Shown here: in pieces, positions 2 through 23,627 of the stretch
How the letters are laid out: each line of letters starts with the position of its first letter
How positions within the stretch are numbered: position 1 is the stretch's first letter
Source of the DNA: a virus
Virus record (IMG/VR): IMGVR_UViG_3300025280_000176
Location: 1-23,627 of that record
DNA length: 23,627 bases
Reading direction: 5' to 3' (one strand)
The notes under the pieces: model-generated
What the model was told of the DNA's origin: nothing
The model's database searches: none
The model's input: the letters and a program-made list of their open reading frames with translations, nothing else
Position numbers and translations under genes: made by a program

Positions 2-322
2 AGTTCTAATCCAGATGAAAACGTTAAAGGTCTGTCATATTTGACTCTCAACGGTGAGACTTATTACATTCCCACCAAAAACTTTTTAGAGGCGTTTTTA
101 ATGAACAATTTAGCCCCCTCAACTTCAGGTGAAGATTTATTTCTGGAAATTGGAGATGCTACCACGCCAGACCCTACTGCTGGAGCAGACTCTACTGGCG
201 GGGGGGTTTATGGGGCGATATTACAACAACTGCAATTTAGTCAAACTCCCGGTTTAGAAGATAGATGGTTATTTACTATTGGATTCTTACTTATCCGTAG
301 GACAGGATTGGTGGGGGGGTAA
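2..322 (+). CDS. Unknown phage protein, 5'-truncated, probably structural
   Basis: The reading frame is open from the left edge, so the first visible TTG at 41 is probably not the start and the gene begins outside the window. The 106 visible residues include a Gly/Thr/Asp-rich stretch and end in RRTGLVGG. I do not recognise the family. Position directly before a tail protein suggests a virion protein (inference). The stop TAA at 320-322 overlaps the next start codon by one base (TAATG), which implies translational coupling. The last two sense codons are GGG GGG within a run of seven G, a possible -1 slippery site described separately. A second G7 run lies at 200-206. Confidence 0.6.
   Translation, partial: SSNPDENVKGLSYLTLNGETYYIPTKNFLEAFLMNNLAPSTSGEDLFLEIGDATTPDPTAGADSTGGGVYGAILQQLQFSQTPGLEDRWLFTIGFLLIRRTGLVGG
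313..322 (+). other. Candidate -1 ribosomal frameshift site G GGG GGG before TAA
   Basis: G313-G319 is read in the zero frame as xxG GGG GGG TAA. This matches the X XXY YYZ slippery heptamer pattern with the stop codon directly after it. A -1 slip reads GTA then ATG at 322, in frame with the 1156-residue tail protein and with no stop between, giving a fusion. Transcriptional slippage on G7 could do the same. The pattern is seen directly; its use is inferred. Confidence 0.4.
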
Positions 323-3300
323 TGGCAGGCTTTAGAAAACAAGCAATGTTGTCTTATTGGGATGGTGATTCCTGGGAGAATATTGTACTAACAGGTACTA
401 CAGCTAGTGCAATATTTTCATTAGATATAATAGATGAGCTTAATATACCTAAATCAGCAGCAATATCCATATTCAATCCTTCAGCAAACCCTTATTCTGG
501 TTCGGCAAGTTCTGCGAAAGGTCCACATACAGGTAAATTCACAGATTTTATACCAGTTAGAGTAATTGATCAGGAATCAAAAGATATTATATTTTATGGG
601 GTTGTTTATTCTGTAAGAGAAAATTTTGATCCTCAATATGGTATGTTGATTCATTTAGAGTGTAGGGACTATACAATAGAATTAAGGGATAATATATCTC
701 ATGGTGAAGTTGGGTATAACATTGATACTTCAGTAGCAACTTCTGCTGTAGTAACTAATTTTGCTGATTCTAATATAACTTCCACATCTGCCGGAAAGGT
801 ATGGTCTACCAGTATTTCAACTCGTAGCGCTTTAATTAAATCATTAATTAATAGATTCTCAAGTAATTTAGATACATCAGATACTACTAAATTTATAGTT
901 TCAGCCCAAAAATTTAAACAGGATTTTATATATCGTTTATCAGGATACAATAAAAAATCTATTTTAAGGCATGTTGCTGATAATGCAATGAGTGAATTAC
1001 ATTCAGCCATTGGAGAGGATGAACTTTTTGGGTATGATTTTTATGTAGACCCTAATACAGTCACTACAAGCACTGCTACTAAATCAACGCCTGATTTTAA
1101 TTATTTTAGGCGCGGAACCAGGCCAAATACAGACCCTGCGAACTATGGTTTAACTGTGCAATTCCCAACTACCTCTGGAGCAACAGAAACCGGACGTTTA
1201 TTTAATATGTCTAGGTTTAATTTTATTAGACCTAAAGATGAGATTTATACAAGTGCTATTTTAGAATATTTAGCAACAAAACAAGGTGCGAATGCGGATA
1301 AATCATTTTTACAAGAATTACGTCTTGAAGCCTTAACAGTAAAGGCAGTTGGTACTGGGAGTGCTTTAACAACATTAGCGGAAGCATTAGATGATTCTGA
1401 AACCGCTATAGATGTAACTAGTGCAAGTTCAATAGCCGCCGGGCAGACCATCAAAGTTGATGATGAAGAGATGTATGTCAGCAGTAAAAGTAGCAATACC
1501 TTAACAGTTATCAGGGGATCAAACGGAACAGCGGCAGCAGCGCATGATAATAGTACCAATGTCACCTCTGGATTTACATGGGGAGGGAAAAACCTTAGCG
1601 GTGGAACAGATGCTCTTAATACTACTGAATTATTACAATGTAGATTAGATGGGTCTGGAGATCCTAATGGCGGAACTGGAGCAAGCGGTGGCACACTTAC
1701 AGATGTTGCGAGAATTCAATATATAAATAGAACAAAAGGTACGATAGATACTAATAATGTAGCTTATGTTTTAATTTCAAATGTGGATCAAGGTAAGAAT
1801 GCCTCTGTTTTTGCTGATGGTGTAATATGGTACGGAAAAACAAACACCGCAGCTTCTTTCACTATAAAAAGCAGACCCCAAAGCACCCTTAATATAACCC
1901 GTACTGCAAAAATATCTACTTCAGAAAGTAGCCCAGAGTTTCTTAGGGAAAGAGTAGCTTCTACATTAATTAAAAATAGCAATACAATACTTAGAGGTAG
2001 TTTTTCAACACGTACAAAACCCATAAGTTATTTTGATAATAGCCCATCTGCTATTGATAGTACATCTTCCACAACGCAGACATACACATTAGCGAATGTT
2101 GGAACGACAGCACAATTATCTACATTAGGGGCGGCTATAAGTAGCACAACCGCGACAACCTTAACTGTAGCTAGTTCTAGTAGTATGGCAGCAGGACAAA
2201 CGATTAAAATTGATTCTGAAGAGATGACCATAGCAAGTGTGTCAGACGGCACTACTATAGTAGTTGTACGAGCGGTAAACCAGGATGTTGGTGGAGGAGT
2301 AGCTGCTACGCATAGTGATACAACAGCAATTTATAATGTAAGTGGTAACCCATTAAATAATGGTGTTAGAGTAGGAACGGCTATTGCTGAATTAGATTCT
2401 TCTAGTAACCCAACAACAACATATGGATATGTTTCAGCAGTTACGGCAACACAAGTTACCGTTACTTGGGCTACAGGTGTTGTAGCTACTGATTCCATCA
2501 TAAGATATTATGTTCCGGTCAGAGCTGGTGATGTTATTAAAGTAACTAATAATTTAGCAGATGTAGATCAAATCTTTTTAGTTGCGAAAATCGCCTATTC
2601 TGAGCAAGTATCAGGTATCATGAGTACACAGTGGGAGGTAATAGGACACAGTAGTGCCGCTGAAGGCGGGTATAGCCGAAGAAGTAATGCTGTTATGGTA
2701 CAAGACGAAATAGCTTATGAAACCGGATTAGCTGTAACAACCCCATCCCCATCTTCTAATTTAACTACAGAATTAGAAACAAATCTTACTATTCGACCCT
2801 ATGCCACTAATGTGGTAGCTTGGGGTGACGGTACATTTAACACAGGTACAGGTAGATTTCCAGATGATGGCACAATAACCGTTGGGGATTTGACCCTTAC
2901 AATTGAAGAAGGTACAACTAATTCTACTTCTTTTATGATTAACGAGAATAATGGTAATCCGGGGCAAAGTGGAACTACGATGGCGGCGGATGAACCTTAT
3001 TACATATATTATCCGGGTCAAGGCACAGCATTAAAAGCTGTTATGAAAAAGAATTATGAATATGTATCAAATGAACGAACATTTGTAGTTTTTGAAGCTA
3101 TAGCAGCTTCCCCTCTTGCCGCATATACCTGGAAAATTGACGAACCTTCTGAAACTACAACAGTTACAGGCACTATTTTTGGGGCTACGGTTCAAGAATC
3201 TGATATACAGGTTACAGATAGTGGGGCAAACAGAGCGGCGGGCACTACTGAAAAATTCAAAGTTACATCAGCGGATGGTGGCGTAACACTAAAACTCAGA

Positions 3301-3792
3301 AGTTTTGATGATACTGCCGAAATAGAGATGTCTGGCAATTCTGGTAGTGGTACTATGATAATGAAACCTCATGGAAGCATATCAAGTACATATACTTTAA
3401 CATTCCCAAATGGTCCAGCAGGAACAGATAATCATGTGTTAACGGCTGATGGGACTGCTGGAGCAACTGATTGGGCAGCTTCCTCATCCTCGAAAAGGTA
3501 TAAAGAGAATATTAGAGAAATGGAGCTAGATAGCTCAAAGATATATGATCTAACACCCAAAAGTTTTAATTATATAGATGGGCATGTAAGTCTTTTAGGT
3601 GGATCTACATTCGGGTATGTTGCTGAAGATATAGAGGATATATTACCGGAAGTTATTCAATATAACAAAGAGGGGCAACCGGATTCATTACACTATCAAT
3701 TATTAACAGTATTACTGGTAGAAGAAATTAAAAAACTAAAAACCAGATTAGAAGAGTTGGAATCTAAAGACCATGAGGAAAAATCCTCGTAA
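322..3792 (+). CDS. Tail tip/fibre protein with C-terminal peptidase S74 chaperone domain
   Basis: A 1156-residue virion protein, probably part of the tail tip or fibre. The last ~100 residues (about 1054-1156) match the peptidase S74 intramolecular chaperone family: SSSKRYKENI, then FGYVAEDIEDILPEV, then YQLLTVLLVEEIKKLK and a terminal coiled coil. S1056 and K1061 have the five-residue spacing of the Ser-Lys dyad of endosialidase-type chaperones, so self-cleavage near 1056 is expected after trimer folding. Just before it, TLTFPNGPAGTDNHVLTADG is a common phage fibre linker. Two related modules lie at about 350-415 and 601-673. The N-terminal ~130 residues have a beta-rich, hub- or baseplate-like look (tentative). 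The start ATG overlaps the previous stop and has only G-rich sequence as a ribosome site. It could be a receptor-binding fibre instead of a hub. Confidence 0.8.
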   Translation: MAGFRKQAMLSYWDGDSWENIVLTGTTASAIFSLDIIDELNIPKSAAISIFNPSANPYSGSASSAKGPHTGKFTDFIPVRVIDQESKDIIFYGVVYSVRENFDPQYGMLIHLECRDYTIELRDNISHGEVGYNIDTSVATSAVVTNFADSNITSTSAGKVWSTSISTRSALIKSLINRFSSNLDTSDTTKFIVSAQKFKQDFIYRLSGYNKKSILRHVADNAMSELHSAIGEDELFGYDFYVDPNTVTTSTATKSTPDFNYFRRGTRPNTDPANYGLTVQFPTTSGATETGRLFNMSRFNFIRPKDEIYTSAILEYLATKQGANADKSFLQELRLEALTVKAVGTGSALTTLAEALDDSETAIDVTSASSIAAGQTIKVDDEEMYVSSKSSNTLTVIRGSNGTAAAAHDNSTNVTSGFTWGGKNLSGGTDALNTTELLQCRLDGSGDPNGGTGASGGTLTDVARIQYINRTKGTIDTNNVAYVLISNVDQGKNASVFADGVIWYGKTNTAASFTIKSRPQSTLNITRTAKISTSESSPEFLRERVASTLIKNSNTILRGSFSTRTKPISYFDNSPSAIDSTSSTTQTYTLANVGTTAQLSTLGAAISSTTATTLTVASSSSMAAGQTIKIDSEEMTIASVSDGTTIVVVRAVNQDVGGGVAATHSDTTAIYNVSGNPLNNGVRVGTAIAELDSSSNPTTTYGYVSAVTATQVTVTWATGVVATDSIIRYYVPVRAGDVIKVTNNLADVDQIFLVAKIAYSEQVSGIMSTQWEVIGHSSAAEGGYSRRSNAVMVQDEIAYETGLAVTTPSPSSNLTTELETNLTIRPYATNVVAWGDGTFNTGTGRFPDDGTITVGDLTLTIEEGTTNSTSFMINENNGNPGQSGTTMAADEPYYIYYPGQGTALKAVMKKNYEYVSNERTFVVFEAIAASPLAAYTWKIDEPSETTTVTGTIFGATVQESDIQVTDSGANRAAGTTEKFKVTSADGGVTLKLRSFDDTAEIEMSGNSGSGTMIMKPHGSISSTYTLTFPNGPAGTDNHVLTADGTAGATDWAASSSSKRYKENIREMELDSSKIYDLTPKSFNYIDGHVSLLGGSTFGYVAEDIEDILPEVIQYNKEGQPDSLHYQLLTVLLVEEIKKLKTRLEELESKDHEEKSS
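1369..1566 (+). repeat. Tail-protein module, copy 1
   Basis: Encodes residues about 350-415 of the tail protein. It shares with copy 2 the core IAAGQTIKVDDEEM and a following T-V-x-R-G-x-N-G-T-A-A-A-A-H pattern. Similar beta modules are common in phage tail proteins. At DNA level only short stretches match, such as GAAGAGATG, so the duplication is old. Confidence 0.65.
2122..2340 (+). repeat. Tail-protein module, copy 2
   Basis: Encodes residues about 601-673 with core MAAGQTIKIDSEEM and a later VAATHSDTTAI that matches the AAAAHDNSTNV end of copy 1. The two copies are separated by about 185 residues of other sequence, so they are dispersed modules and not a tandem array. Confidence 0.65.
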
Positions 3793-4177
3793 GATAAAAA
3801 GAATTGTTAGGTATAAGGAAGAAAATCCCACTTTAACATTAAAAGATATTGGTAAACGATTCAAAACATCAAAACAATATATACATAAAGTATTAAAAAA
3901 CCAAAATATACCTACAGCTATACGAGCCAGGAAAAAAAGGGTTTCTTACTGCTTAGAATGCGCATCTCCTATATACATTAAGTATTTACTTAAAAAACCT
4001 ATCTGTTCTACAAAATGCCATTTTAAATACTTTAATATAAAGATAACTTGTGATTATTGTAGAACACCTTTCTACAGGAAAAGATCAGCACTCATACAAA
4101 AATCCGTAATGGGTTACAAGCATAGTTTTTGTACCTTACAGTGTTTCTATAGGGCACAGAGAGCCGGAATAACTTAA
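3773..4177 (+). CDS. Small helix-turn-helix and double zinc-ribbon protein
   Basis: A 134-residue basic protein of unrecognised family. Residues about 14-45 (LTLKDIGKRFKTSKQYIHKV) look like a helix-turn-helix. Two Cys4 zinc-ribbon patterns follow: C60-x2-C63 with C78-x3-C82, and C93-x2-C96 with C120-x3-C124. The CSxxC/CTxxC style resembles DNA-binding fingers that accompany HNH homing endonucleases, but no HNH core is visible. It overlaps the tail gene by 20 bases, has no clear Shine-Dalgarno, and ends just before the main promoter region. A role as DNA-binding regulator is possible; a decayed homing endonuclease is the alternative. Confidence 0.65.
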   Translation: MRKNPRKIKRIVRYKEENPTLTLKDIGKRFKTSKQYIHKVLKNQNIPTAIRARKKRVSYCLECASPIYIKYLLKKPICSTKCHFKYFNIKITCDYCRTPFYRKRSALIQKSVMGYKHSFCTLQCFYRAQRAGIT

Positions 4178-4180
4178 CAC

Positions 4181-4209
4181 TTAACATTAGAACACAAATT
4201 TGCTATAAT
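4181..4209 (+). promoter_or_regulatory. Sigma70-type promoter (TTAACA, 17 bp, TGCTATAAT)
   Basis: TTAACA at 4181-4186 is five of six to the -35 consensus minus one (TTGACA has G and A where this has A and A; four to five matches depending on alignment). A 17-bp spacer leads to a perfect TATAAT at 4204-4209, with TG at 4202-4203 forming an extended -10 except for spacing of one base. It lies between two genes and would serve the takeover/replication operon from 4257. Predicted transcription start is about 4215-4217. Confidence 0.7.
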
Positions 4210-4237
4210 ATTCATGAACCCTTTGGGTTCATATATT
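4207..4237 (+). terminator. Hairpin at the operon junction: terminator or 5' mRNA stem
   Basis: ATGAACCC (4214-4221), loop TTT, GGGTTCAT (4225-4232) form a perfect 8-bp stem. AATAT and ATATT extend it with a two-base bulge. An AU-rich tract follows, but without a pure U run, so it is a weak-looking intrinsic terminator for the upstream tail operon. The predicted start of the 4181 promoter falls within the left arm, so the new transcript could start with a 6-bp stem at its 5' end. Confidence 0.5.
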
Positions 4238-4256: not shown

Positions 4257-4463
4257 ATGTTCACGATACCAAGTTTTTTAAAAACTAAAAGTTTTTGGAT
4301 TTTATTTACAGCATTATCCTTCGCTCATATTGCTGAGGATATGATTTGGGCTATTTTAGCCAGGTACACCGCAGTTCCTATAGGGTTATTAATAACAGGG
4401 ATTATATTGTGGGCTTTTGCTATATCTATTTTTGTTAAATATTTAGATAAAAAGAAACAATAA
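4257..4463 (+). CDS. Small two-helix membrane protein
   Basis: A 68-residue protein with two predicted membrane spans, about residues 12-34 and 39-61, a short connecting segment with RYTA, and a basic C-terminal tail (KYLDKKKQ). The first span contains charged residues (HIAED), which is unusual for a simple anchor. AAGGGG at 4246-4251 is a good Shine-Dalgarno. It is the first gene after the main promoter, and its TAA overlaps the ATG of the sigma factor gene. An inner-membrane role in early infection such as superinfection exclusion is an inference; a holin is possible, but no endolysin is near. Family not recognised. Confidence 0.7.
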   Translation: MFTIPSFLKTKSFWILFTALSFAHIAEDMIWAILARYTAVPIGLLITGIILWAFAISIFVKYLDKKKQ

Positions 4464-5014
4464 TGGAAATAGATAATGATTTAATACAACAATGGGAACC
4501 GAAGATCCAAAAAATGATATCTAATTTGTATATAGTAGGTATGGATAAAGATGATTTAATACAAGAATTAAGGATAGCAATTATAAAAGCTGCGAAGTCC
4601 TTCGACCAGAATAGGGAATATAAATTTCATACTTATCTACATACTACTATGATCAACCATATACGAACGTTAATAAGCAAGGAACAGAAAAGACGACGGG
4701 ATACAAGTGGGACTTGGGTGAATGAAGTAAGTTTACAAGCTGCTTATCCGGTACATGACCAATCGAGCTCTGAAGCCACCCCAGTAGAGCCGGAAGATCC
4801 AAGAGCCGTGAGAGAACATCAAAATATGGAAACGGAAAGGTTTGTTCACTCTAAAAAATTAAGTTTGAAAGAACAAAAATTTCTTGAATTACGTCAAGAT
4901 GGTATGACTATGGAAGAAATCAGTAAGGATTTAGGGGAATCAGCTTATAAGGTTCGCCAAATACTAAGAGAAAAGTTCCTGGATTTAGCTGATGAACATC
5001 AACTTAATCTTTAA
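4463..5014 (+). CDS. Phage-encoded sigma70-family sigma factor
   Basis: A 183-residue protein with the two-domain layout of ECF-like or phage sigma factors. Residues about 10-72 match region 2 (DKDDLIQELRIAIIKAAKSF, then KFHTYLHTTMINHIR), which binds the beta' clamp and melts the -10. After a charged, Ser/Pro-rich linker (about 76-125), residues about 131-175 match region 4 (LSLKEQKFLELRQDGMTMEE, then SAYKVRQILREKF), a helix-turn-helix. It would redirect host RNA polymerase to phage promoters, as T4 gp55 and SPO1 sigma factors do. It is coupled to the upstream gene through TAATG and precedes the replication genes, consistent with early expression and later action. Candidate target sites are at 18422 and 23182. 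Confidence 0.85.
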   Translation: MEIDNDLIQQWEPKIQKMISNLYIVGMDKDDLIQELRIAIIKAAKSFDQNREYKFHTYLHTTMINHIRTLISKEQKRRRDTSGTWVNEVSLQAAYPVHDQSSSEATPVEPEDPRAVREHQNMETERFVHSKKLSLKEQKFLELRQDGMTMEEISKDLGESAYKVRQILREKFLDLADEHQLNL

Positions 5015-5040: not shown

Positions 5041-5295
5041 ATGGCAAAAAGACGTAGAAAGGGAGGTTTAATTCAAAGTACCAAATCAATTAAAGATGAG
5101 GATTATACTTTTAGAATTATAGCTATAAACCCCCCCTCTAAAGTATGGGTAGTTGGAAAATATACTTCATTTAATGAAGCTAAGGAGCTTATTGACAGTT
5201 TAGATGCTGTGGATGTAGACTACTACTTAGAAAATATTAATTCTAATAGAGTTTTATACTCAAAAGTAGGAAATTCACCAAATGGCAAGCCCTGA
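5041..5295 (+). CDS. Small unknown protein
   Basis: An 84-residue protein with a very basic start (MAKRRRKGG) followed by an alternating strand/helix pattern (DYTFRIIAI, KVWVVGKY, SFNEAKELIDSL, YYLEN, RVLYSKV). This suggests a small alpha/beta fold. It has no motif I can name. It begins after a hairpin and ends inside the helicase gene (14-base overlap), so it is probably co-translated with it. Position between sigma factor and helicase suggests a replication or takeover accessory (inference only). Confidence 0.65.
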   Translation: MAKRRRKGGLIQSTKSIKDEDYTFRIIAINPPSKVWVVGKYTSFNEAKELIDSLDAVDVDYYLENINSNRVLYSKVGNSPNGKP

Positions 5296-8377: not shown

Positions 8378-10399
8378 ATGATAGTCAATAATAATAATTT
8401 TAAAGAGGCTTTACAGCAATTAAAGTCATCAACCTTGGAAACGAAAAGCGTTGTTATTGATGTGGAGACTAATGGTTTAGATTATGATATTAATCAATTG
8501 TGTGGTATAGGAATTGGCGAACCTAAATATAAGGGGGTAATGCAGTATTACCCCTTTTTACATTCCGGTGAAGATAGAGATCAAAATCTTTATAAAGAAC
8601 ATCGCACACAACTGATCGAGTTTTTAAACTCATCCATAAACACTTTTATTGGATATAACCTTAAATTCGACTTACATTTTTTAGCTCAAGAGGGGTTAGC
8701 TTGTCTTAATAAAACTTTAATTGATGTAATTGTGATGGTTAGGCTAATTGAACACTCAGACATTAGAGAGTTAAGTTTAACAGCTACAGGCAATAGGCAT
8801 TATGGTCCAGAAGCAGTACAGTATGATCTTGATACTAAACACGAGTTACGTAAGAATAACTGGTACAAAAATTTTTCTGAAGCACCAATAGATTTTTTGG
8901 GGGAATATTGTAAAGAGGATATTAATTTAACTGCGAGATTATACCAGGAGTGTTTAGTAAAGATAAAGAAAACAGATCAAAGTAACATATTTAACTTAGA
9001 ATGTAAGCTAACTAAAGTATTACTTGAAATGGAAATGTTAGGTATCTCAATTGATAAAGAATACACTTTAAAAATTCAAAAATTATTATTAATACGCTTA
9101 AATGAACTTGAACGTGAAATACTTAATGTATCCGGTATGAAAAAATGGAATCGTGATATTCCAATAGCTTCCCCCAAACATGATGAAAAAGAATTTAATA
9201 TATCTAGCCCAAAGCAAATCGGGGAAGTTTTCGCCTCTTTGGGAATAGAATCACCAATAAAGACTGAAAAGGGGGCTGCTTCTTGGAATGAGGCGGCTTT
9301 AGTAAACATAAATCACCGTTTAGCCGGGTTAATACGGCAATACAGAGCATTACAGAAATTAAAGTCCACTTATGTAGATAGATATGTAGATAAAGATGTT
9401 ATGCGAACATCTTTTTGTAATTGGGGTACAGCAACAGGGAGACTTTCCAGTAGAGATCCAAATTTACAAAATATACCCAGGAATCATTTTCGTTTAGTTA
9501 GTCCTGAGTTAACTGAAGAAGAAAAACTTAGAATAAAAAACAAAATAGACGCTATGGTTTCATCAAAAGGTCAACAACTTAATGTAGAGTTATCTGATGA
9601 TGTACTAGAAACTTGGGCATTTATTGGGGATGAATCTTATGATGATAGAGATGAAAATCAAATATCTATTAGACGTTTATTTGTGCCCAGGTCCCATTAT
9701 TCATTAGTTAGTTTTGATTATAATCAAATGGAAGTTCGAGTTTTTATGTCCTACTTTAGAAATGAGACTATAGATGCATTACTTAACAAAGATGAGGTGG
9801 ACTTTCATGGAGAGGCGGCTAAGTTAGCATTTAACATTACTGAAAACGATGAGCAGTTTAAATTTTATCGACAACTAGCTAAAGGTATAACTTTCGGTAC
9901 AATTTACGGTATCGGCAAAAATAGACTAGCAGAGCAGTTAAAAACAACTCCAGAAGAAGCAGCAAGTTATAAAAGAAAATATTTTGAGGGTATGGTTGGA
10001 TCTAAAAAATTTTTTAATGATGTTGTTGCTAGGGTTAAACAGAGTAAAAAGGGTATAAAAAATAGATATAATCGTAGATATCATATAAAAGCAGATTTTG
10101 CTTATAAAGGAGTTAATTATCTTGTACAAGGAACTAGTGCTGACATTCTTAGTGAGAGAATGGTAGAAATTTCTAAATATTTACAAGATAAGAGATCCAA
10201 TATAGTCTTACAAGTACATGATGAGATTATATGTGAGATACATGAATCTGAATTAGGCTTAATTCCAAAGCGAATCAAAGAATTACTTGAACAAAACAGT
10301 TTAGATATCCCTTTAAAAGTTGATATGGAGTTATGCGTTAAATCGTGGGCTAATAAAAAAGATTTTAAAGATATGTCATTTTTAGATTATTCAGATTAA
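8378..10399 (+). CDS. polA: Family A DNA polymerase with 3'-5' exonuclease
   Basis: A 673-residue replicative polymerase. The proofreading domain has Exo I (IDVET, D28/E30), Exo II (NLKFDLHF, D98) and Exo III (YCKED, Y177/D181). The polymerase domain has TATGRLSSRDPNLQNIP (351-367), motif A (SFDYNQMEVR, D447), motif B (R498, K502, F506, Y510) and motif C (QVHDE, H614/D615). There is no 5'-3' exonuclease domain. Residue F506 aligns with E. coli Phe762, the wild-type state linked to faithful synthesis. About 55 extra residues lie between QNIP and IRRLF, compared with E. coli Pol I. The only upstream signal is a hairpin, not a Shine-Dalgarno. A terminator-like hairpin lies inside the gene at 8531. 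Confidence 0.93.
   Translation: MIVNNNNFKEALQQLKSSTLETKSVVIDVETNGLDYDINQLCGIGIGEPKYKGVMQYYPFLHSGEDRDQNLYKEHRTQLIEFLNSSINTFIGYNLKFDLHFLAQEGLACLNKTLIDVIVMVRLIEHSDIRELSLTATGNRHYGPEAVQYDLDTKHELRKNNWYKNFSEAPIDFLGEYCKEDINLTARLYQECLVKIKKTDQSNIFNLECKLTKVLLEMEMLGISIDKEYTLKIQKLLLIRLNELEREILNVSGMKKWNRDIPIASPKHDEKEFNISSPKQIGEVFASLGIESPIKTEKGAASWNEAALVNINHRLAGLIRQYRALQKLKSTYVDRYVDKDVMRTSFCNWGTATGRLSSRDPNLQNIPRNHFRLVSPELTEEEKLRIKNKIDAMVSSKGQQLNVELSDDVLETWAFIGDESYDDRDENQISIRRLFVPRSHYSLVSFDYNQMEVRVFMSYFRNETIDALLNKDEVDFHGEAAKLAFNITENDEQFKFYRQLAKGITFGTIYGIGKNRLAEQLKTTPEEAASYKRKYFEGMVGSKKFFNDVVARVKQSKKGIKNRYNRRYHIKADFAYKGVNYLVQGTSADILSERMVEISKYLQDKRSNIVLQVHDEIICEIHESELGLIPKRIKELLEQNSLDIPLKVDMELCVKSWANKKDFKDMSFLDYSD
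8531..8559 (+). terminator. Intragenic terminator-like hairpin in the polymerase gene
   Basis: AAGGGGGTAAT (8531-8541), loop GCAGT, ATTACCCCTTT (8547-8557) form an 11-bp stem with one G-U pair. It contains eight perfect pairs, GGGGTAAT with ATTACCCC, and is followed by T-rich bases (T8555-T8559). It has the shape of a rho-independent terminator in the sense direction, about 150 bases after the polymerase start. It may attenuate polymerase expression, or be a coincidence of codon choice. Confidence 0.45.
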
Positions 10400-10412
10400 G
10401 GAAGGAATTATT

Positions 10413-10718
10413 ATGAAACAAAGTTACGAAGAAGCTTGCAGGGAAGCTGCATTAGAAATAGCCCAGGTTGTGATAAACAAACAACATGATTACGGGCATG
10501 ACAACATACTAGCTTTTAGAGAAAAGGGATTAGTTGTTAGATTGTGGGATAAGGTGTCCAGGTTAAAAAACCTGATGTGGAAAAACGATTACGAGCCAAA
10601 GAACGAATCAGTAGTAGATACGTTTATAGATATCGCTGGATATGGTATAATTGCTTTAATGTTAGCTAAAGGGAGTTTCACTAATGAACTCCAAGAAAAC
10701 AAGTCAATGGGGGATTAA
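10413..10718 (+). CDS. Nmad1/DUF1599-family protein
   Basis: A 101-residue helical protein. KQHDYGHDNI (24-33), then EKGLVVRLWDKVSRLKNL (37-54) and SVVDTFIDIAGYGIIALML (66-84) match the DUF1599 family, also named nucleotide modification associated domain 1. The fold is MazG-like all-alpha, and family members are found in phages, sometimes with base-modification genes. A role in nucleotide handling is the best guess. The gene follows the polymerase by 13 bases with AAGGAAGGA as a strong ribosome site. No partner modification enzyme is visible in the window, so no modified base can be claimed. Confidence 0.8.
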   Translation: MKQSYEEACREAALEIAQVVINKQHDYGHDNILAFREKGLVVRLWDKVSRLKNLMWKNDYEPKNESVVDTFIDIAGYGIIALMLAKGSFTNELQENKSMGD

Positions 10719-10719
10719 T

Positions 10720-10941
10720 ATGTCTTTAATTTCAGTTAAAATTGGATTTACACAAAAAATGGCGGATTTTGAAAATCGCCGTATTGATGTCGAAATATCA
10801 GACATTGATACAGAGTTATCTTTAGAAGCTCAGTTAGCGGATGCGGATACTGCTATAGATGCTAGTTTGGTGGTATTAAAAACCAAGCTAAGTGAACTAT
10901 ACAATAAAGGCAATAGTGATGATATAGAGGAGGATGAATGA
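10720..10941 (+). CDS. Small acidic unknown protein
   Basis: A 73-residue protein starting at ATG 10720, chosen because GGGGGA lies seven bases upstream and it begins right after the previous stop. An upstream in-frame ATG at 10684 would add 12 residues but overlap the previous gene by 35 bases. It has a strand-like start (MSLISVKIGF), an acidic helical middle with Asp/Glu/Ala repeats (DIDTELSLEAQLADADTAID) and an acidic tail (SDDIEEDE). Its stop overlaps the recA-like start by four bases (ATGA), so the two are coupled. Family not recognised. Confidence 0.6.
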   Translation: MSLISVKIGFTQKMADFENRRIDVEISDIDTELSLEAQLADADTAIDASLVVLKTKLSELYNKGNSDDIEEDE

Positions 10942-11876
10942 AGAAAACAGCATCCGAGGTTATAAAACAACTACTTAAAAAACATAAAAACCTACAATCA
11001 GGGGATAGTGTTGGGTTAGAGTATGACAGGATTCCATTTAATATCCCAGCTTTGGATAAATTAACTGGTGGCGGCATACCTAAGAAAAGATTCACTTTAA
11101 TTTATGGGCCTACAAATGTTGGTAAATCATATTTAGCTTCACAGATTATTGTTAATGTTCAAAAGCAGGGTGGAGTAGCTGCATGGATTGATACAGAACT
11201 ATCTTATGATCCTAAGTGGGTTAAAAAATGTGGTGTGGATACAAAAAACCTCCTATTTTTAGAACCAACTACTGGAGAGGAAGCTTTTAACACGATTAGG
11301 GAGTTAATGCTGGACGGTGTGGATATTATTGTATTGGATAGCATAGCTGGGTTAGTACCCACTACAGTATTAGATGAAGAGTTTAGTTATAACCCTATGG
11401 CTTGGCAAGCTAGATTTGTAAATAGTGCCTTACCTAAATTATTACCTAATCTTAAACACGGATCCGCTTTTGTAGCTATAAACCAGGTAAGGTCCTCTGT
11501 GGGTCCTACAGCTTTAGATAACATGCCCGGGGGATTAGCTCAGAGTTTCTTCGCCCACTTCTTAATACAAGTTCGGAGACATGGTTGGATAAAAGAAGGT
11601 AAGCAGAACGTGGGTTTTGATATGGATATTAGGTTACGCAAAACGAAAGCAGGCGGTGAAAACTGGAATTCGGCAACTATTCCCTTTAGAGTTGAGGGTG
11701 GTATAGACATTATGGAAAGTTATATTCGGGAAGCAATTAAACAACGCATGATTAAACAAGCTGGGCCTTGGTATACATATAATGATATTAAATTACAAGG
11801 TTTAAATGGGGTTAAAGAATTCTTTATTGAGAATAAGAAACTTTTTAAGGAATTGCAAAGTGGGCTTACTACCTAG
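10938..11876 (+). CDS. RecA-like recombinase
   Basis: A 312-residue ATPase of the RecA/UvsX superfamily, expected to pair homologous strands in phage recombination. Walker A is GPTNVGKS (57-64). The WIDTELSYDP segment (83-92) matches the catalytic Glu region of RecA (E87). Walker B is IIVLDS (130-135). INQVR (181-185) and the following MPGGLAQSFFAHFLIQVRR (196-214) match the L2 and GG region of RecA. It is smaller than E. coli RecA and lacks its C-terminal domain, although an unrelated helical end is present. It is coupled to the preceding small gene by ATGA, with AGGAGGA as ribosome site. The following gene overlaps its end by 17 bases if the GTG start at 11860 is used. It heads the recombination cluster. 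Confidence 0.9.
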   Translation: MKKTASEVIKQLLKKHKNLQSGDSVGLEYDRIPFNIPALDKLTGGGIPKKRFTLIYGPTNVGKSYLASQIIVNVQKQGGVAAWIDTELSYDPKWVKKCGVDTKNLLFLEPTTGEEAFNTIRELMLDGVDIIVLDSIAGLVPTTVLDEEFSYNPMAWQARFVNSALPKLLPNLKHGSAFVAINQVRSSVGPTALDNMPGGLAQSFFAHFLIQVRRHGWIKEGKQNVGFDMDIRLRKTKAGGENWNSATIPFRVEGGIDIMESYIREAIKQRMIKQAGPWYTYNDIKLQGLNGVKEFFIENKKLFKELQSGLTT

Positions 11877-13318: not shown

Positions 13319-13770
13319 ATTATTTAGGTTTGGACTGTTCTTCGCTGGCTATTCATGGGGTTTTATTAGATTCTGAAGAACAAATAAGTTCGATGCATAA
13401 ATGGGGGAGCAAGAAAAAAGTTTTTGAGGAAAGATTCCCTGAAATATCGTTAGGATTTTCCAAAGATTTGAGTAAAATAAAATTAACTGGTAAAGCTTCC
13501 ATTGAAGCAGCGATTTTTATTCAAAATCCAAAGACGACTATCGCAATCGCTCATGTAGTTGGATTTGTTTGGGGTACTTTGTTACAAAAGGGCATTGATG
13601 CGATTAGGGTGGATAATAAACAATGGAAAAAAGGCGTTTTAGGTAAAGGAAATGCCTCAAAAGATGATATCAGACAATTTGCGGTAGATAAATGGGGAGA
13701 TGTTTTCCCTGAGCAAGATTATGCGGATGCGGCATGTATAGCATTATGGAATAAAAGGAGATTAGACTAA
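13315..13770 (+). CDS. RuvC-like Holliday junction resolvase
   Basis: A 151-residue RNase H-fold nuclease. LGLDCSS (D7) is the first catalytic aspartate strand, ASIEAAIF (E64) the second acidic residue, and QDYADAACIALW (D135/D138) the C-terminal acidic helix, matching the RuvC catalytic set. NKQWKKGVLGKGNASKDDIR resembles the DNA-binding segment of the family. It would cut branched DNA before packaging and completes the RecA/Cas4/Vsr-like cluster. It is coupled to the previous gene by a four-base ATGA overlap and to the next by TAATG. Confidence 0.82.
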   Translation: MNYLGLDCSSLAIHGVLLDSEEQISSMHKWGSKKKVFEERFPEISLGFSKDLSKIKLTGKASIEAAIFIQNPKTTIAIAHVVGFVWGTLLQKGIDAIRVDNKQWKKGVLGKGNASKDDIRQFAVDKWGDVFPEQDYADAACIALWNKRRLD

Positions 13771-16473: not shown

Positions 16474-18408
16474 ATGACAAGCGTTGCTACAACAACATTA
16501 ACAACACATAATAAGGCTTTATCAAAGCAGGCGGAAACAATCTTAGAACATAGGTATTTATTAAAAGATACAAAGGGAAATGTTGTTGAAGATAGCAATA
16601 CATTGTTTAAAAGAGTTGCTAAAGCAATTTCTTCTGTAGAAACTAATTACTACACTTTACCGGTAGAAACGGAGTTAGTTGAAAACGACTTTTTTGAAAT
16701 GCTTTCTAATCTTGAATTCATACCCAATTCCCCAACTTTAATGAATGCTGGAACAGAGCAGGGAACCTTATCCGCATGTTTCGTTCTACCTTTAGAAGAT
16801 TCGATGGAAGGTATTATGAAAGCCGCTACTGACACAGCTATGGTACAAAAGTTTGGTGGTGGAACCGGATTCTCGCTCTCAAAAATTAGACCTAAAGGAT
16901 CTAAAATTAAAACCACTCACGGAATTGCGTGTGGCCCGATAGAAGTATTAAAAACACTTTCACGGGTTTCCTCTATGATAACTCAAGGAGGTAAACGTGA
17001 TGGAGCGAATATGGCTGTTATGTCTGTTTATCATCCTGATATTTTGGAGTTTATTACTTGTAAGTCTAATGAAGGGGATATTCATAATTTCAATATATCA
17101 GTGGGAGTTGATTCACATTGGATGGATTGTGTGGTAAATGGATTAGATTATACTTTAATTAATCCCCATGATAACACGGTAGCCGGAAAATTAAATGCGG
17201 AGGATGTATTTAATAAGATAGTTGAGGGGGCGTGGAAAAACGGCGAACCAGGAATGATTTTCTTAGATCAAGTCAATACAGACAATCATGTATCTGAAAC
17301 TTACGGGGAAATGATTGCTACCAACCCATGTGGTGAGCAGCCTCTCTTAGGAAATGAATCTTGTAATTTAGGTTCAATTAATCTAGCACAGTTTTATAGT
17401 AATAGGGATTTACAACTTGTAGAGGAACCCGTATGGAAAGCTCAAATAAACTGGGAAAGATTACAAAAAGTAACCCGTTTATCAACCAGGTTTCTAGACA
17501 ATGTAATAGACGCTAATCACTATGCGACTCCTGACATAGAGCATATGACTAAAGCTACTCGAAAGATCGGTTTAGGGGTAATGGGATTTGCAGATTTATT
17601 AATTCAACTTAGAATTCCATATAATTCCGAAACAGCTAGAGAAGTTGGAAATGAAATAATGTCCAAGATTAAAGAATGGGCTGATAATGAATCTTTGGAT
17701 CTCGGTTCTCAAAGAGGAGCTTTCCCTGCTTGGGAAGATAGTACATTTAATAAAAATTCCGAAATATACAGGAATCATTGTCGCTTGACTGTTGCTCCGA
17801 CAGGGACAATATCTATGTTAGCCGATTGCTCAAGTGGGATAGAACCAACATTTGCATTAGCCTGGAAGAAACAAAACATTTTAGAAGGTAAATCCTTTAA
17901 TTATGTAAATAAGTATTTTGAATCGGATGCTAAAGAATACGGTTTTTATTCACAAGGGTTGATGGAGTATCTTGCTAATGGGGGTTCATTACAAGAATCC
18001 CAATATAATATACCCACATGGGTAAAAAATGTTTATATTACTTCCCCAGACATTTCACCGGAAGATCATGTATTAATGCAATCCACATTCCAAAAACATG
18101 TAGATTCTGGAATCTCTAAAACTATTAATTTTGCAAATAAAGCGTCAGTAGATGATGTTAAAAATGCTTATATGTTAGCGTGGGATATGAAATGTAAAGG
18201 TATTACTGTGTATAGAGCCGGAAGTAGGGAGAAGGAAGTTTTAGTTAAAGGAACAAATGCAGGTAATCAATTAGAATTTACCTTACCGTTAACGAAAGAA
18301 GAAAATCAAACAAATACAGAGGATTGTTGCGCTAATCCATACATAGTGATGGAATCAGGTTGTGAGACTTGTAAGGCTTGTGGCTTCAGTGCTTGTGTCA
18401 TTGCTTAG
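16474..18408 (+). CDS. nrdJ: Class II (adenosylcobalamin-dependent) ribonucleotide reductase
   Basis: A 644-residue single-subunit reductase that makes deoxynucleotides. Start at ATG 16474, with GGAGGA seven bases upstream; a TTG at 16459 is less likely. Motifs: C102 in LSACFVLP and C297 in ESCNLGS form the reducing pair; NPCGE (284-288) carries the thiyl radical C286; KFGGGTGFSLSKIRPKG (126-142) and LTVAPTGTISMLADCSSGIE (438-457) match NrdJ. The C-terminus has C630, C633 and C636 in a CETCKAC-like arrangement that shuttles electrons from a redoxin. The next gene is a glutaredoxin, its likely partner. It needs a cobalamin-making or -importing host. A class I enzyme with NrdB is excluded by the absence of a small subunit gene nearby and the NrdJ-like motifs. 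Confidence 0.92.
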   Translation: MTSVATTTLTTHNKALSKQAETILEHRYLLKDTKGNVVEDSNTLFKRVAKAISSVETNYYTLPVETELVENDFFEMLSNLEFIPNSPTLMNAGTEQGTLSACFVLPLEDSMEGIMKAATDTAMVQKFGGGTGFSLSKIRPKGSKIKTTHGIACGPIEVLKTLSRVSSMITQGGKRDGANMAVMSVYHPDILEFITCKSNEGDIHNFNISVGVDSHWMDCVVNGLDYTLINPHDNTVAGKLNAEDVFNKIVEGAWKNGEPGMIFLDQVNTDNHVSETYGEMIATNPCGEQPLLGNESCNLGSINLAQFYSNRDLQLVEEPVWKAQINWERLQKVTRLSTRFLDNVIDANHYATPDIEHMTKATRKIGLGVMGFADLLIQLRIPYNSETAREVGNEIMSKIKEWADNESLDLGSQRGAFPAWEDSTFNKNSEIYRNHCRLTVAPTGTISMLADCSSGIEPTFALAWKKQNILEGKSFNYVNKYFESDAKEYGFYSQGLMEYLANGGSLQESQYNIPTWVKNVYITSPDISPEDHVLMQSTFQKHVDSGISKTINFANKASVDDVKNAYMLAWDMKCKGITVYRAGSREKEVLVKGTNAGNQLEFTLPLTKEENQTNTEDCCANPYIVMESGCETCKACGFSACVIA

Positions 18409-18421
18409 GTAATTAACATAA

Positions 18422-18435
18422 TTTGAGTATAATAA
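18422..18435 (+). promoter_or_regulatory. Candidate phage promoter, TTTGAGTATAATAA
   Basis: A perfect TATAAT (18428-18433) lies in the gap between nrdJ and the glutaredoxin gene. No -35 element is visible at 16 to 18 bp. It matches the site at 23182 in 13 of 14 bases. Predicted start is about 18440, leaving a short leader with GGGAG before the ATG. It may be read by the phage sigma factor. Confidence 0.5.
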
Positions 18436-18453
18436 GATTAACTGGGAGAATTT

Positions 18454-18690
18454 ATGGGGGTAATAATATATACATCCAATGGTTGTGCTCCATGCATGGC
18501 TACGAAATCTTGGTTAGGCAAAAATAATATTTCATATACAGAAAAAAATATTACAGAGGAAGAAAATAGGAAAGAACTCATTCAGAAGGGTTATCAATCA
18601 ACACCGGTAACAATGATACAAAATGAGGGGGATATAACTTACATAGTAGGTTATAACGTTAGGAAATTAGAACAAGCTTTTAGTATATAG
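18454..18690 (+). CDS. Glutaredoxin (NrdH-like redoxin)
   Basis: A 78-residue thioredoxin-fold protein. The active-site motif is CAPC (C11-x2-C14) after strand IIYTSNG, and the cis-proline loop is STPVTMI (T50-P51). Length is typical of short glutaredoxins and NrdH redoxins. It lies directly after the reductase gene and should reduce its C-terminal cysteines. GGGAG is the ribosome site. It may be transcribed separately from its own -10 element. CAPC is not the classic glutaredoxin CPYC or the NrdH CxxC variant, so the electron donor (glutathione or thioredoxin reductase) is uncertain. Confidence 0.85.
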   Translation: MGVIIYTSNGCAPCMATKSWLGKNNISYTEKNITEEENRKELIQKGYQSTPVTMIQNEGDITYIVGYNVRKLEQAFSI

Positions 18691-18703
18691 AGGAGAATTA
18701 ATA

Positions 18704-19156
18704 ATGCCTATAGGAAACATGTTAGCTGGTGGAGAACTACAATACGTAGCATTACAGGATGAAGCGGGAACGTGGAGGATATTAGATACATGGCATGATG
18801 ACCTTAAGCAGGTTGATGCAGATGCTGACATTTCGGATGATAGTCCAGCAGTATCCGTACTTTCAGAGGGTCAGTTTCATGCTCTAGTAAAAGAAGCCGG
18901 TAGATTAGGGGTTTTACAAAACGCTAATCATGGGATAAACGAGGCGGAATTAGCTGAATTAGATGAGGGGATATTAAAAAGGGATGAAGATATACAATCT
19001 TTACATAACCAAATAACAAAACTAAAAGAAGAAAAAAATCAACGGGCACGCGACACCTCACCCACAAATGATTATGAATTAAAAGAAAAAGCTATGAACA
19101 CAATATTAAAATTAGTTTCAATACAGGACATGACCAATTTAGGCGATAAGGAATGA
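18704..19156 (+). CDS. Unknown protein before the portal
   Basis: A 150-residue protein. The N-terminal ~30 residues (MPIGNMLAGGELQYVALQDE, then WRILDTW) look like a short beta unit. An acidic linker (about 36-46) follows, then helices, with a coiled coil at about 84-118 (HNQITKLKEEKN). No family recognised. AGGAGA is a good ribosome site. The AAGGA ribosome site of the portal gene lies inside its last codons, so the two are likely expressed together. A head-assembly role is possible from context. Confidence 0.68.
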   Translation: MPIGNMLAGGELQYVALQDEAGTWRILDTWHDDLKQVDADADISDDSPAVSVLSEGQFHALVKEAGRLGVLQNANHGINEAELAELDEGILKRDEDIQSLHNQITKLKEEKNQRARDTSPTNDYELKEKAMNTILKLVSIQDMTNLGDKE

Positions 19157-19160
19157 TTAT

Positions 19161-21056
19161 ATGAAGTTGTCAAAATACCTTCCCCAGGTTCCAAAAATGA
19201 CACAACAGATGGCTGATTTAAATAAGCAGATTAGTTTGTTGGATGTGATGAAAGCAAGTGGAGACACTAATGTTGCGCCTACTATAGGGTTAGACCATGT
19301 AGTTAATACTTGGATACGCCATCAAATGGCCTATAGACAGCAACTTGTACAAGATTTACAAACAATAGCCATGTCTGTAGAGGAGATTAGGGGGCCTTTG
19401 TCTCATATAACAAGTGAGGTTTTTAGGCGGGGATTGGAGTTTGTCCCAACTGTAGAAAATCCAGATATGGAACAAAAAGAAAAACTTAAGACCTGGACAG
19501 CAGATTGTAATGTATTTGACCAAAGTATAGAGGAAGTGTTACGACAGTTCCATTTCGATGTAAATTCTCTTGATGATGGTTTCTTATATTTAGCTAAGGA
19601 ATATACAGATATGGGGGATGGTAAGGTTACCGCTAGGATGCAGGAGATTAGACGTTTAAATCCAGCTTTAATGGAATTCGATCTTGATACCGTGGGATTA
19701 CCCAAAAACTCCCATTTCCTTTGCCCTATACATAGAGAAAATGTACATGAAGCTTCAGGGACATGTGAAAAGGATAATTGTGATATTGAATTACATCCTG
19801 CAATGTATAAGTATTACCACAGAAATAAACACATGTATTTTACAGATAGTGAGGTTATTCACCTATCTAAATTCTCTCCCACTGAAACATATGGTTGGAG
19901 TCCACTACTTACTATTTTTGAAAAAGCTTTAACATTAGTGGGTATGGATAAGAATCTCTATAGGTATTTCTTTGAGAGGAAGATGCCAGCGGCTATGTTA
20001 ATGGTAACTACGGATGACCCAGAATCATTGCGTAGAGAACGAGAGCATATAGCGGCTCAAACTCGGATAGATCCTAACTATATACCAATGGTAGCTGTAT
20101 CTGCCAGGAATCAAAGGGGCCGTGTTGATTTGGTTCGTTTATTCCACACCCTTCAGGAGATGGATTATCTCCCTGTTCGAGATGAAATTAGAGAAAGGGT
20201 GGCGGCAATGTGGGGGGTAACCCCAGCTTGGCAGGGAGCACCTGAAGCTTTCGGAGGATTATCAAGTCAAACACAGCAATTAGTTGTTATGAGTCGTGTA
20301 GTAGAAGGTGACCAAAGATTATTCCATGAAAAGATTTTCCCTCAGTTATTAAAAGCATTTGGAATCACAGATTGGGAAATAAAACTCCCCAATCCAGAAG
20401 AGAAGGCGGAGAACACCAGATTATCATTTGCACAACAGAAAATTCAAATTGTTAATCAGTTTGCTCAACTCGGCTTTGATATCAAGTTAAAGGAACAAGA
20501 TGTGGATATATGGGAGGCTGATTTTGTTGTTAGTGGGGAATATGTACCTACAGCTAAATTAGCTGGAGAGCAGTTAGCTATGGGTATTGAACAACAACGT
20601 CAGTTATTAGAGGAGCCTGAAGAAATAGTTGAGGAGGAGGAAGATATACAGTTAATGAGTAAAGCTATACCCAAACATAAACGTAAGTTTAAAGGTAGAA
20701 CTGGTGGCGTAACTCCTAATTGGGCAGATAAAGCACCAAATGAGGAAAGAGATATAGATGAATACGCAGAAGCTAGAGCTAAAAAGAATGAATTAACACT
20801 ATCTAAATCCTGGATTGAATCATTAAGTTATCAAGGATTCACATCGCCGGTTATAAAAGAGATAACTTCAGATATGAGTAAAATGTGGTTTTCCCAAAAT
20901 GATATTGAATATGTAGCTAATTTATCGCCTACAGGTGTTACTCATATTGAAAAAGCGGTATTTACAGATCCTAAGAAATTTAAGCGTAAAAGCAACAAAC
21001 AGGAAAAAAACATTACCAAGCAATTGGCGGAAGTTGATGCTGGAATAGATTTTTAA
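19161..21056 (+). CDS. Portal protein
   Basis: A 631-residue portal, which would form the dodecameric DNA entry channel. Recognisable segments are VIHLSKFSPTETYGWSPLL (232-250), FERKMPAAMLM (271-281), VRLFHTLQEMDYLPVRDEIR (325-344), AMWGVTPAWQGAP (349-361) and VVEGDQRLFHEKIFP (380-394), typical of phage portals. C188-x2-H191 and C202-x4-C207 suggest an inserted zinc knuckle in the wing. Residues about 484-495 are a Glu-rich stretch, and the ~130-residue C-terminal part is basic and helical, possibly a barrel or a fused segment. It follows terL by some 2.7 kb, separated by the reductase block. Confidence 0.88.
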   Translation: MKLSKYLPQVPKMTQQMADLNKQISLLDVMKASGDTNVAPTIGLDHVVNTWIRHQMAYRQQLVQDLQTIAMSVEEIRGPLSHITSEVFRRGLEFVPTVENPDMEQKEKLKTWTADCNVFDQSIEEVLRQFHFDVNSLDDGFLYLAKEYTDMGDGKVTARMQEIRRLNPALMEFDLDTVGLPKNSHFLCPIHRENVHEASGTCEKDNCDIELHPAMYKYYHRNKHMYFTDSEVIHLSKFSPTETYGWSPLLTIFEKALTLVGMDKNLYRYFFERKMPAAMLMVTTDDPESLRREREHIAAQTRIDPNYIPMVAVSARNQRGRVDLVRLFHTLQEMDYLPVRDEIRERVAAMWGVTPAWQGAPEAFGGLSSQTQQLVVMSRVVEGDQRLFHEKIFPQLLKAFGITDWEIKLPNPEEKAENTRLSFAQQKIQIVNQFAQLGFDIKLKEQDVDIWEADFVVSGEYVPTAKLAGEQLAMGIEQQRQLLEEPEEIVEEEEDIQLMSKAIPKHKRKFKGRTGGVTPNWADKAPNEERDIDEYAEARAKKNELTLSKSWIESLSYQGFTSPVIKEITSDMSKMWFSQNDIEYVANLSPTGVTHIEKAVFTDPKKFKRKSNKQEKNITKQLAEVDAGIDF

Positions 21057-21750: not shown

Positions 21751-22044
21751 ATGTATTCTAAGTTATGTTTTAAATGCGATGGCCCTACCTATATAGACAT
21801 AGATGGGGATTTACATTGTATTGTATGTGGGAGAACAGTTAATTTAAAGATCAGGAGAAATTATGATTCCAGAACAGGCAAAATCAGAGATAATAAAAAA
21901 ACGTTCGGAGGGGATGACGTGGGATTCGATAGCGGATTGGGTGAACGAAAAGTACGGAGTAAAGGTTCACAGAACGTCGATTCAACGTTGTCACGAGAAA
22001 GAATTATGGGCGGAAGAAGAGGAGTTCTTACCTCCAGAAGATAG
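21751..22044 (+). CDS. Small zinc-ribbon protein overlapping the next gene
   Basis: A 97-residue protein. Residues 6-27 form a zinc ribbon, C6-x2-C9 with C23-x2-C26 (GDLHCIVCGR). The remaining ~70 residues are Arg/Gly/Asp-rich and probably disordered. Its last 182 bases are also the start of the metallophosphoesterase gene in another frame. Either the frames are truly overlapping genes, or only the zinc ribbon is meaningful. No clear Shine-Dalgarno is seen. The preceding 63-base gap holds only a 6-bp inverted repeat (ATCCAT/ATGGAT at 21701-21718). Confidence 0.6.
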   Translation: MYSKLCFKCDGPTYIDIDGDLHCIVCGRTVNLKIRRNYDSRTGKIRDNKKTFGGDDVGFDSGLGERKVRSKGSQNVDSTLSRERIMGGRRGVLTSRR

Positions 22045-23173: not shown

Positions 23174-23181
23174 CTAAATTT

Positions 23182-23195
23182 TTTAAGTATAATAA
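23182..23195 (+). promoter_or_regulatory. Candidate phage promoter, TTTAAGTATAATAA
   Basis: A perfect TATAAT (23188-23193) lies in the 27-base gap between two genes, with no -35 element, matching the 18422 site in 13 of 14 bases. The predicted start (about 23200-23201) coincides with the next ATG, so the transcript may be leaderless. Confidence 0.5.
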
Positions 23196-23200
23196 CTATT

Positions 23201-23627
23201 ATGGTTAAAGCTAAAAGAGATATTTTAAACGAACCTTTTACACAAGAGATGATTAATATATTCGAGTCTGAGTTACTTAGATTAGAAAAACCTTACTTTA
23301 AAAAATTAGGTAATTCAACATACAAAACCGCTCAAGAAGAAGTACCTTTACAAAGCGGTAATTTAAGAGATAGCGCGACTTTATCCGAAGCTGATTATAC
23401 TAAGGGAGAGGCTTTTAGTATTAAATATGCTGCCTCATATGCATACGCATTACATGAAGGTGAACAGGTGACACCACAAGAACTTGATGCAACTGGTCAA
23501 TATCCGTGGAGCGCTTATACTAGATCTTACATGAGACAGGGTAAGAGGGTAAGAGAACACTTTAAAACTTATAAGAAATATTATAAACCAGTGTATGTAA
23601 ATAATAGTTTTTGGGCCTCACTAGACC
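23201..23627 (+). CDS. gp10-like connector/tail-completion protein, 3'-truncated
   Basis: The first 142 codons of a gene that runs off the right edge. PLQSGNLRDSATLSEADY followed by FSIKYAASYAYALHEGE resembles the HK97 gp10-like family of head-tail connector or tail-completion proteins, in which a G-x-L-R-x-S segment precedes a YA-x-x-hEfG-type segment. A Lys/Arg/Tyr-rich stretch (RVREHFKTYKKYYKPVYV) follows. No Shine-Dalgarno is present before the ATG, and the TATAAT ends seven bases before it. Assignment to this family is moderate because the C-terminal half is missing. Confidence 0.65.
   Translation, partial: MVKAKRDILNEPFTQEMINIFESELLRLEKPYFKKLGNSTYKTAQEEVPLQSGNLRDSATLSEADYTKGEAFSIKYAASYAYALHEGEQVTPQELDATGQYPWSAYTRSYMRQGKRVREHFKTYKKYYKPVYVNNSFWASLD

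Follow-up and report, generated by a model that had tools for sequence, protein, structure and literature searches.

The locus and its relatives

The DNA under study, IMGVR_UViG_3300025280_000176, is a whole IMG/VR virus record of 23,627 bases (hereafter the window), a fragment in which genes are cut at both ends. It carries an operon coding for a sigma-70-family protein and replication proteins and, further along the same strand, portal and minor capsid-like genes. The elements of concern here are the following:

4181..4209 (+), host-type promoter before the sigma/replication operon: TTAACA at 4181-4186, 17 nt, then TGC and TATAAT at 4204-4209
4214..4232 (+), perfect hairpin ATGAACCC-TTT-GGGTTCAT from a terminator-like scan, where the sigma-operon transcript is predicted to begin
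4463..5014 (+), sigma-70-family factor of 183 aa: region 2 at aa 7-76 (4481-4690) and region 4 helix-turn-helix (HTH) at aa 132-170 (4856-4972)
18405..18414 (+), weak upstream element TTAGGTAATT of the 18422 promoter, -35 to -26, overlapping the RNR stop codon
18422-18435 (+), predicted late promoter -10 site TTTGAGTATAATAA, TATAAT at 18428-18433, before the glutaredoxin, F3 and portal genes
18454..21056 (+), genes downstream of this first late site: glutaredoxin-like (18454), F3 (18704) and portal (19161)
23182-23195 (+), predicted late promoter -10 site TTTAAGTATAATAA, TATAAT at 23188-23193, in the gap 23174-23200
23201..23627 (+), minor capsid-like gene F25, truncated by the window end

For comparison we gathered 152 loci from IMG/VR with portal and sigma queries and used 21 longer contigs at full length, with ORFs called mechanically and clustered by BLASTP into families; the calls in these relatives are simple in-house ones, and some start codons may be off. 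The only GenBank phage records matching the portal are those of haloarchaeal viruses, at ~27-29% identity, and the group is thus essentially uncultured. Among the structural families, F26 was recognized as the capsid by PF17236 (4e-10) and F32 as the tail tube by PF18906 (2e-9), while the minor-capsid identity of F25 is based on weak matches: its ortholog in contig G001 matches the minor head protein family phrog_556 (1.4e-4), and a PF11114 match is weak and below the cut-off. Profile searches returned no match for F38 or for F24, which sits just before the capsid gene.

Elsewhere in the window, a 1,156-aa protein (322-3792) matches the long tail fibre profile phrog_33119 at its C-terminus (aa 1054-1149), where the sequence looks like an intramolecular chaperone domain. 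An ORF of 97 aa (21751-22044), which has two CxxC pairs, shares ~180 bases, in another frame, with the start of an exonuclease-like gene (21863-23173). Adjoining the sigma operon is a gene for a 134-aa protein (3773-4177) with an HTH-like N-terminus and several cysteine pairs; its family has 63 members, and it is a possible second regulator.

A start signal shared by structural genes

An earlier note on this DNA had drawn attention to the sites at 18422 and 23182 as copies of one motif. They are indeed identical at 13 of 14 positions, and both are intergenic and on the coding strand. The note's impression that this form is seen nowhere else in the window also holds: the exact pattern TTTnAGTATAATAA has these two copies and no others on either strand, as against none in 100 dinucleotide shuffles of the window, and the reversed pattern used as a control has no match there. 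Its sole one-mismatch site, at 13467, lies within an ORF, and the 11 two-mismatch sites (5 expected) carry little weight. The stretch between the sigma gene and 18422 is free of late sites. The first site lies in the gap 18409-18453, followed by a Shine-Dalgarno sequence (GGGAG, 18444-18448) and the start codon at 18454, and has orthologous counterparts before F44/F3 in relatives; the second is separated by 7 nt from the start codon at 23201, with no Shine-Dalgarno sequence.

The structural genes of this large uncultured phage group share the start signal TAGTATAATA, and its replication genes are without it. In a survey of 410 non-redundant intergenic gaps from 131 contigs, the commonest 8-mer was GTATAATA, found in 76 gaps in the forward direction versus 4 in the reverse and ranking ahead of the Shine-Dalgarno 8-mer AGGAGGAA (26 gaps). 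We then searched each family for AGTATAAT or GTATAATA over a stretch from 130 nt upstream to 12 nt inside the gene. The motif precedes F25 in 37/37 cases, F24 in 36/39, F32 in 17/17, F3 of the portal operon in 47/71 and F22 in 10/42, counts that measure conservation and not independent events, because orthologous sites are related by descent. The same search found it before none of the genes for sigma (0/69), DnaB (0/70), primase (0/128), PolA (0/55), RecA (0/51), TerL (0/41) and RNR (0/52). Altogether it precedes 36-37 different gene families.

The pattern recurred in a held-out set of 64 contigs that had played no part in finding it: the motif stood upstream of F24 in 11/11, F25 in 7/8, F32 in 3/3, F38 in 6/6 and F3 in 14/38, and of no gene for DnaB, PolA, RecA, TerL or RNR, and GTATAATA occurred in 35 gaps forward and in none reverse. 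Five of 19 held-out sigma genes also appeared to have the motif, but these were not counted, as at the sites inspected the motif falls in what appears to be the coding end of the upstream gene (Lys-Tyr-Asn-Lys codons) in a single family. When the data are pooled, AGTATAAT lies within 160 nt upstream of 97/115 F24, F25 and F32 genes versus 13/1,227 genes of the replication and sigma operons, and among contigs retrieved only through the capsid leader RNA, GTATAAT was found upstream of that leader in 71/76. The 81.6-kb contig G023 has 15 copies of AGTATAATA on the strand of its sigma gene and none on the other; they include sites at 81200, 78412 and 76514, the next being at 49464, and this leaves 27 kb free of sites, inside which is the sigma gene (66.7-66.9 kb). 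Counts on the sigma strand and the other are 11 to 0 in G028, 7 to 1 in G024, 6 to 2 in G027, 8 to 3 in G025 and 4 to 1 in G026. Across these contigs the hits are not distributed at random but show a strand bias and a bias toward structural genes, those expected to be late, and we regard the existence of a late-promoter class as close to certain. No description of this motif was found in the open-access literature that we searched, whose coverage was partial.

Architecture of the predicted late promoters

With TATAAT numbered -12 to -7, the sequence of the late sites is T(-15) A(-14) G(-13) TATAAT A(-6), wherein G(-13) and TATAAT were fixed by the selection of sites and the remaining positions were measured. 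Across 136 non-redundant sites from 37 families there is a further weak element, R R A A/T A/T T (RRAAWT), at about -32 to -27. It is also seen in the 34 sites that have non-coding DNA at that place, and in leave-one-family-out scoring it was positive, with positions farther upstream being negative. A free-position, MEME-like search gave mostly conserved coding ends instead of this element and was not used as evidence.

This bears on the description of the two window sites as being without a -35. The statement stands for TTGACA, which at a match of at least 5/6 accompanies 5/117 late sites, about the chance level; it falls short with respect to the weak, family-specific upstream element, which scored +5.0 bits at 18422 and -0.1 bits at 23182 with a matrix whose training set excluded the F25, F3 and F44 families. 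A strict -10-only model is weakened by the conserved -32 to -27 element: such a promoter may exist at 23182, though it is not the rule. A TG at -15/-14 is likewise absent from the late TATAAT boxes of F24, F25 and F32 (0/106). Among all intergenic TATAAT boxes, a good -35 showed no significant association with the absence of AG at -14/-13 (p = 0.39), and the two promoter classes are therefore separated more by gene class than by this test.

Start-codon spacing and predicted leaderless mRNAs

Spacing between TATAAT and the first ATG of an ORF is bimodal in the 136 sites, falling either at 3-8 nt or at 13 nt and above, with one site at 9 nt and none at 10-12 nt. The short class comprises 26 sites, 17 of them at exactly 5 nt, and none has a Shine-Dalgarno sequence by what was a permissive test; nearly all sites of the longer class have one. 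The F25 sites show a like pattern. The missing Shine-Dalgarno sequences at 3-8 nt are partly forced, since the motif itself fills that place, but the sharp spacing peak and the empty stretch next to it are not forced by motif position. The simplest reading of the short-spaced sites is that transcription would begin at or just before the ATG. Some late mRNAs, including that from 23182, are thus predicted to be leaderless because the -10 box is so near the start codon. Leaderless phage mRNAs are already known (PMC5312081).

The phage sigma factor and its operon

The sigma gene proposed at 4463-5014 was confirmed by matches to Pfam Sigma70_r2 (1.5e-12) and phrog_351. Its region 2 reaches 47.6 bits against PF04542, above the cut-off of 24 and placing it in the sigma-70 superfamily; Sigma70_r4 gives 19.8 bits, under the cut-off of 24.1. 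In an alignment of 36 sequences (A1) the blocks WEPKIQKM, QELR and FHTYLH and the residue N65 are invariant, and a region 4-like block, GLTMEEIxxDLGESAYKVRQxLR, is conserved; divergent sigmas found later relax some of the invariant positions. A PDB profile search retrieved sigma-E (1or7) as the best match, with E 1.1e-5 over regions 2 and 4. In the AF2 model (mean pLDDT 69, pTM 0.43) the helices of regions 2 and 4 are for the most part predicted with confidence, and the linker between them has low confidence. A Foldseek search with this model agrees with sigma folds, the overall TM being low owing to the flexible linker; given the quality of the model, this search says only that the protein is sigma-like.

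Exactly one Sigma70_r2 gene is present in 14/15 long contigs, and the 15th, G001, has a divergent sigma that was found by family. This sigma (G001 26197-27084; G013 10252-11139, coding-strand coordinates) is very different, at 295 aa with a long N-terminal extension and a tyrosine at the place of R68 of the window protein, in contigs whose portal (82%) makes them the next nearest to the window and whose promoters are unchanged; it looks like a case of gene replacement or fast divergence.

Upstream of the operon, the postulated host-like promoter at 4181 is present, TTAACA-17-TATAAT with TG matching 11/12 of the consensus, and its ortholog in G001 is TTAACA-17-TAAAAT. For the hairpin at 4214-4232, G001 and L087 have a similar counterpart in the corresponding position. 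In relatives the sigma operon often has a host-type TTGACA-17-TATAAT promoter. Sigma-70-type promoters of at least 10/12 precede it in 9/18 non-redundant lineages, the window among the nine; the other half, in whose chosen gap no good promoter of host type is seen, counts against the order of events proposed below, as does one of the nine, G005, in which both TTGACA and AGTATAATA stand before the sigma operon.

Who reads the late promoters

The earlier note had envisaged a three-step program leading from a host-read promoter through the phage sigma to the late sites. Its positional part has stood: the motif lies upstream of structural genes, is nearly absent before the replication and sigma operon, and a host-type promoter is often found there. 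The reading of the motif by the phage sigma is our interpretation. In the first step, host polymerase with its housekeeping sigma would transcribe the operon of phage sigma and replication genes from 4181, as suggested by the consensus promoter at this position and its recurrence in relatives. In the second, the small region 2 plus region 4 protein would, as expected from its family, bind the host core polymerase. In the third, this holoenzyme would initiate at the TAGTATAATA extended -10 with the weak RRAAWT about 15 bp upstream, before the portal, minor capsid, capsid and tail tube genes, a placement that is observed directly; at some of these promoters, 23182 included, the spacing suggests that the mRNA would begin at or a few nucleotides from the ATG and be leaderless. 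The order of host-read promoter, sigma and late promoters appears well supported by the comparison among relatives. That the phage sigma reads the late sites is in our view probable, since there is one sigma per contig in the 15 long contigs, the motif marks genes that are expected to be late, and the motif-free operon encodes the sigma; that the whole constitutes a three-step late-transcription system of this uncultured phage group, with the phage sigma acting at the late promoters, is probable too, by a judgement drawn from genomic data. The patchiness of the portal-operon site, seen in the F3 counts of both data sets, tells against this explanation.

An attempt to connect sigma and motif by covariation was unsuccessful. 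The idea that R68, aligned by eye to T440 of sigma-70 and invariant in A1, reads the G at -13 came from a distant groundwater relative that has a leucine at that place and no G at -13. It was rejected, as G003, G004 and G008, with isoleucine there, and G001 and G013, with tyrosine, keep AGTATAATA. This groundwater phage, at 50% identity in the portal and 34% in the sigma, encodes a sigma homolog but shows no enrichment of AGTATAATA and has other repeated promoter-like sequences, a single case and no more than suggestive. A scan with its own sigma yielded no viral relatives. The 110-kb phage contig JACOXG010000010.1 (L207, L212-L217), from a Candidatus Daviesbacteria metagenome-assembled genome, has a portal at 50% and a capsid at ~70%, a short sigma homolog and repeated AAAACATTTTCTTTCAATATAATATAAT. 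As the sole genome-contig match it raised Candidatus Daviesbacteria as the host, which we rejected because the match is too distant and the genome possibly mis-binned.

An alternative, which we consider unlikely, is that a host sigma, housekeeping or alternative, reads the late promoters, perhaps aided by a phage activator, for which the HTH/Cys-rich protein encoded at 3773-4177 is a candidate, the phage sigma serving other genes or another purpose. TATAAT is, after all, the standard housekeeping -10 box, the cyanophage Ma-LMM01 achieves three temporal classes with only host sigma-70-like promoters (PMC5780444), and the change of R68 under an unchanged motif means that no coupling between sigma and motif is visible. 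Against this stand the lack of both TTGACA and the TG at the late sites, the occurrence of TTGACA host-type promoters in the same genomes and the retention of the sigma gene in all long contigs examined. A role of the motif as an RNA-level signal for processing or translation would account for its nearness to start codons and its near confinement to the coding strand, but is very improbable: its spacing from the start codon ranges from 3 to >100 nt, a conserved structured leader intervenes at the capsid operon, and it is shaped like a -10 box which at 3-8 nt replaces the Shine-Dalgarno sequence. Chance similarity in AT-rich DNA, which does produce the looser two-mismatch versions, has a negligible claim on the exact pattern, absent as it is from the shuffles, and is refuted by the strand and gene-class bias in the group and again in the held-out contigs.

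Comparison with known systems

The preferred reading, with the phage sigma at the late promoters, has its closest precedent in phage T4, where a small sigma-70-family protein, gp55, reads late promoters consisting of an extended TATA-like -10 with AT-rich DNA downstream, and the host sigma reads the early genes (PMC2988020). The present system resembles it in having a small phage-encoded sigma-70-family protein, late promoters in which an extended TATA-like -10 predominates, followed by AT-rich DNA, and early genes that the host sigma would read. The likeness to gp55 drawn in the earlier note does not extend to the family level. T4 gp55 belongs to phrog_234 and is sigma-70-like in domain 2 only, whereas the window sigma, of phrog_351, also has a region 4-like HTH; hhalign pairs the two with a probability of 3.3% (E 0.013, 41 columns, region 2). 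Further, T4 late promoters have an 8-bp TATA box and no conservation at -35, in contrast to TAGTATAATA with its weak conserved upstream element. A gp45-like clamp (PF02916) had no match in eight long contigs, themselves fragments, nor in any control genome. The system would be much like the T4 late switch in kind, with its own sequence code.

The two-domain layout, with regions 2 and 4 only in 183 aa, is shared with the ECF/group 4 sigmas such as E. coli sigma-E. The -10 of the late motif is TATAAT-like, which ECF -10 elements are not, and the upstream element here is weak. The typical ECF -35 is GGAAC, to which RRAAWT is vaguely similar, and its purine-purine-A-A may resemble a GGAA-type -35. 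SPO1-type phages have sequential, sigma-driven gene classes, but with promoter sequences unlike those found here. Ma-LMM01 is an aquatic phage, also with early, middle and late classes, but it lacks a sigma of the gp55 type and all its classes depend on host-type promoters (PMC5780444).

If correct, this reading allows the promoters of a large uncultured phage group, known here only from sequence, to be decoded, making late operons readable from assemblies and the timing of expression predictable, and the phage sigma with its promoters makes a compact system of two parts that can be put to the test. Which late genes have leaderless mRNAs is additionally predicted by the spacing rule. A review of T4 asked why a fused late sigma, combining gp55 and gp33, does not exist (PMC2988020); should the present protein be confirmed as a late sigma, its possession of both regions 2 and 4 would make it an apt comparison. 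More tentatively, and with the balance somewhat against it, we suggest that a single polypeptide with both regions might drive the whole structural regulon with no clamp, and that at many genes the -10 might replace the ribosome-binding site and yield leaderless mRNAs.

A conserved leader of the capsid operon

In relatives, a leader of ~80-120 nt comes after the predicted late promoter that stands upstream of F24 and the capsid gene (L019 about 5050-5186; G001 46291-46411). It contains the hairpin AAGGUCGGAGGUGGCUUAGACCAACCUU, which is strongly conserved, and would fall about 1 kb past the 3′ end of the window. The AAGGUCGGAGGUGGCUUAGACCAACCUU leader was found in 51 contigs, nearly all before F24/F26 and with none on the reverse strand, and its core in at least 120 IMG/VR stretches; it has no Rfam match. 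It may serve to control translation of the capsid operon. The outer stem covaries, with G-C changed to A-U in 8/33 and U-A to C-G in 2.
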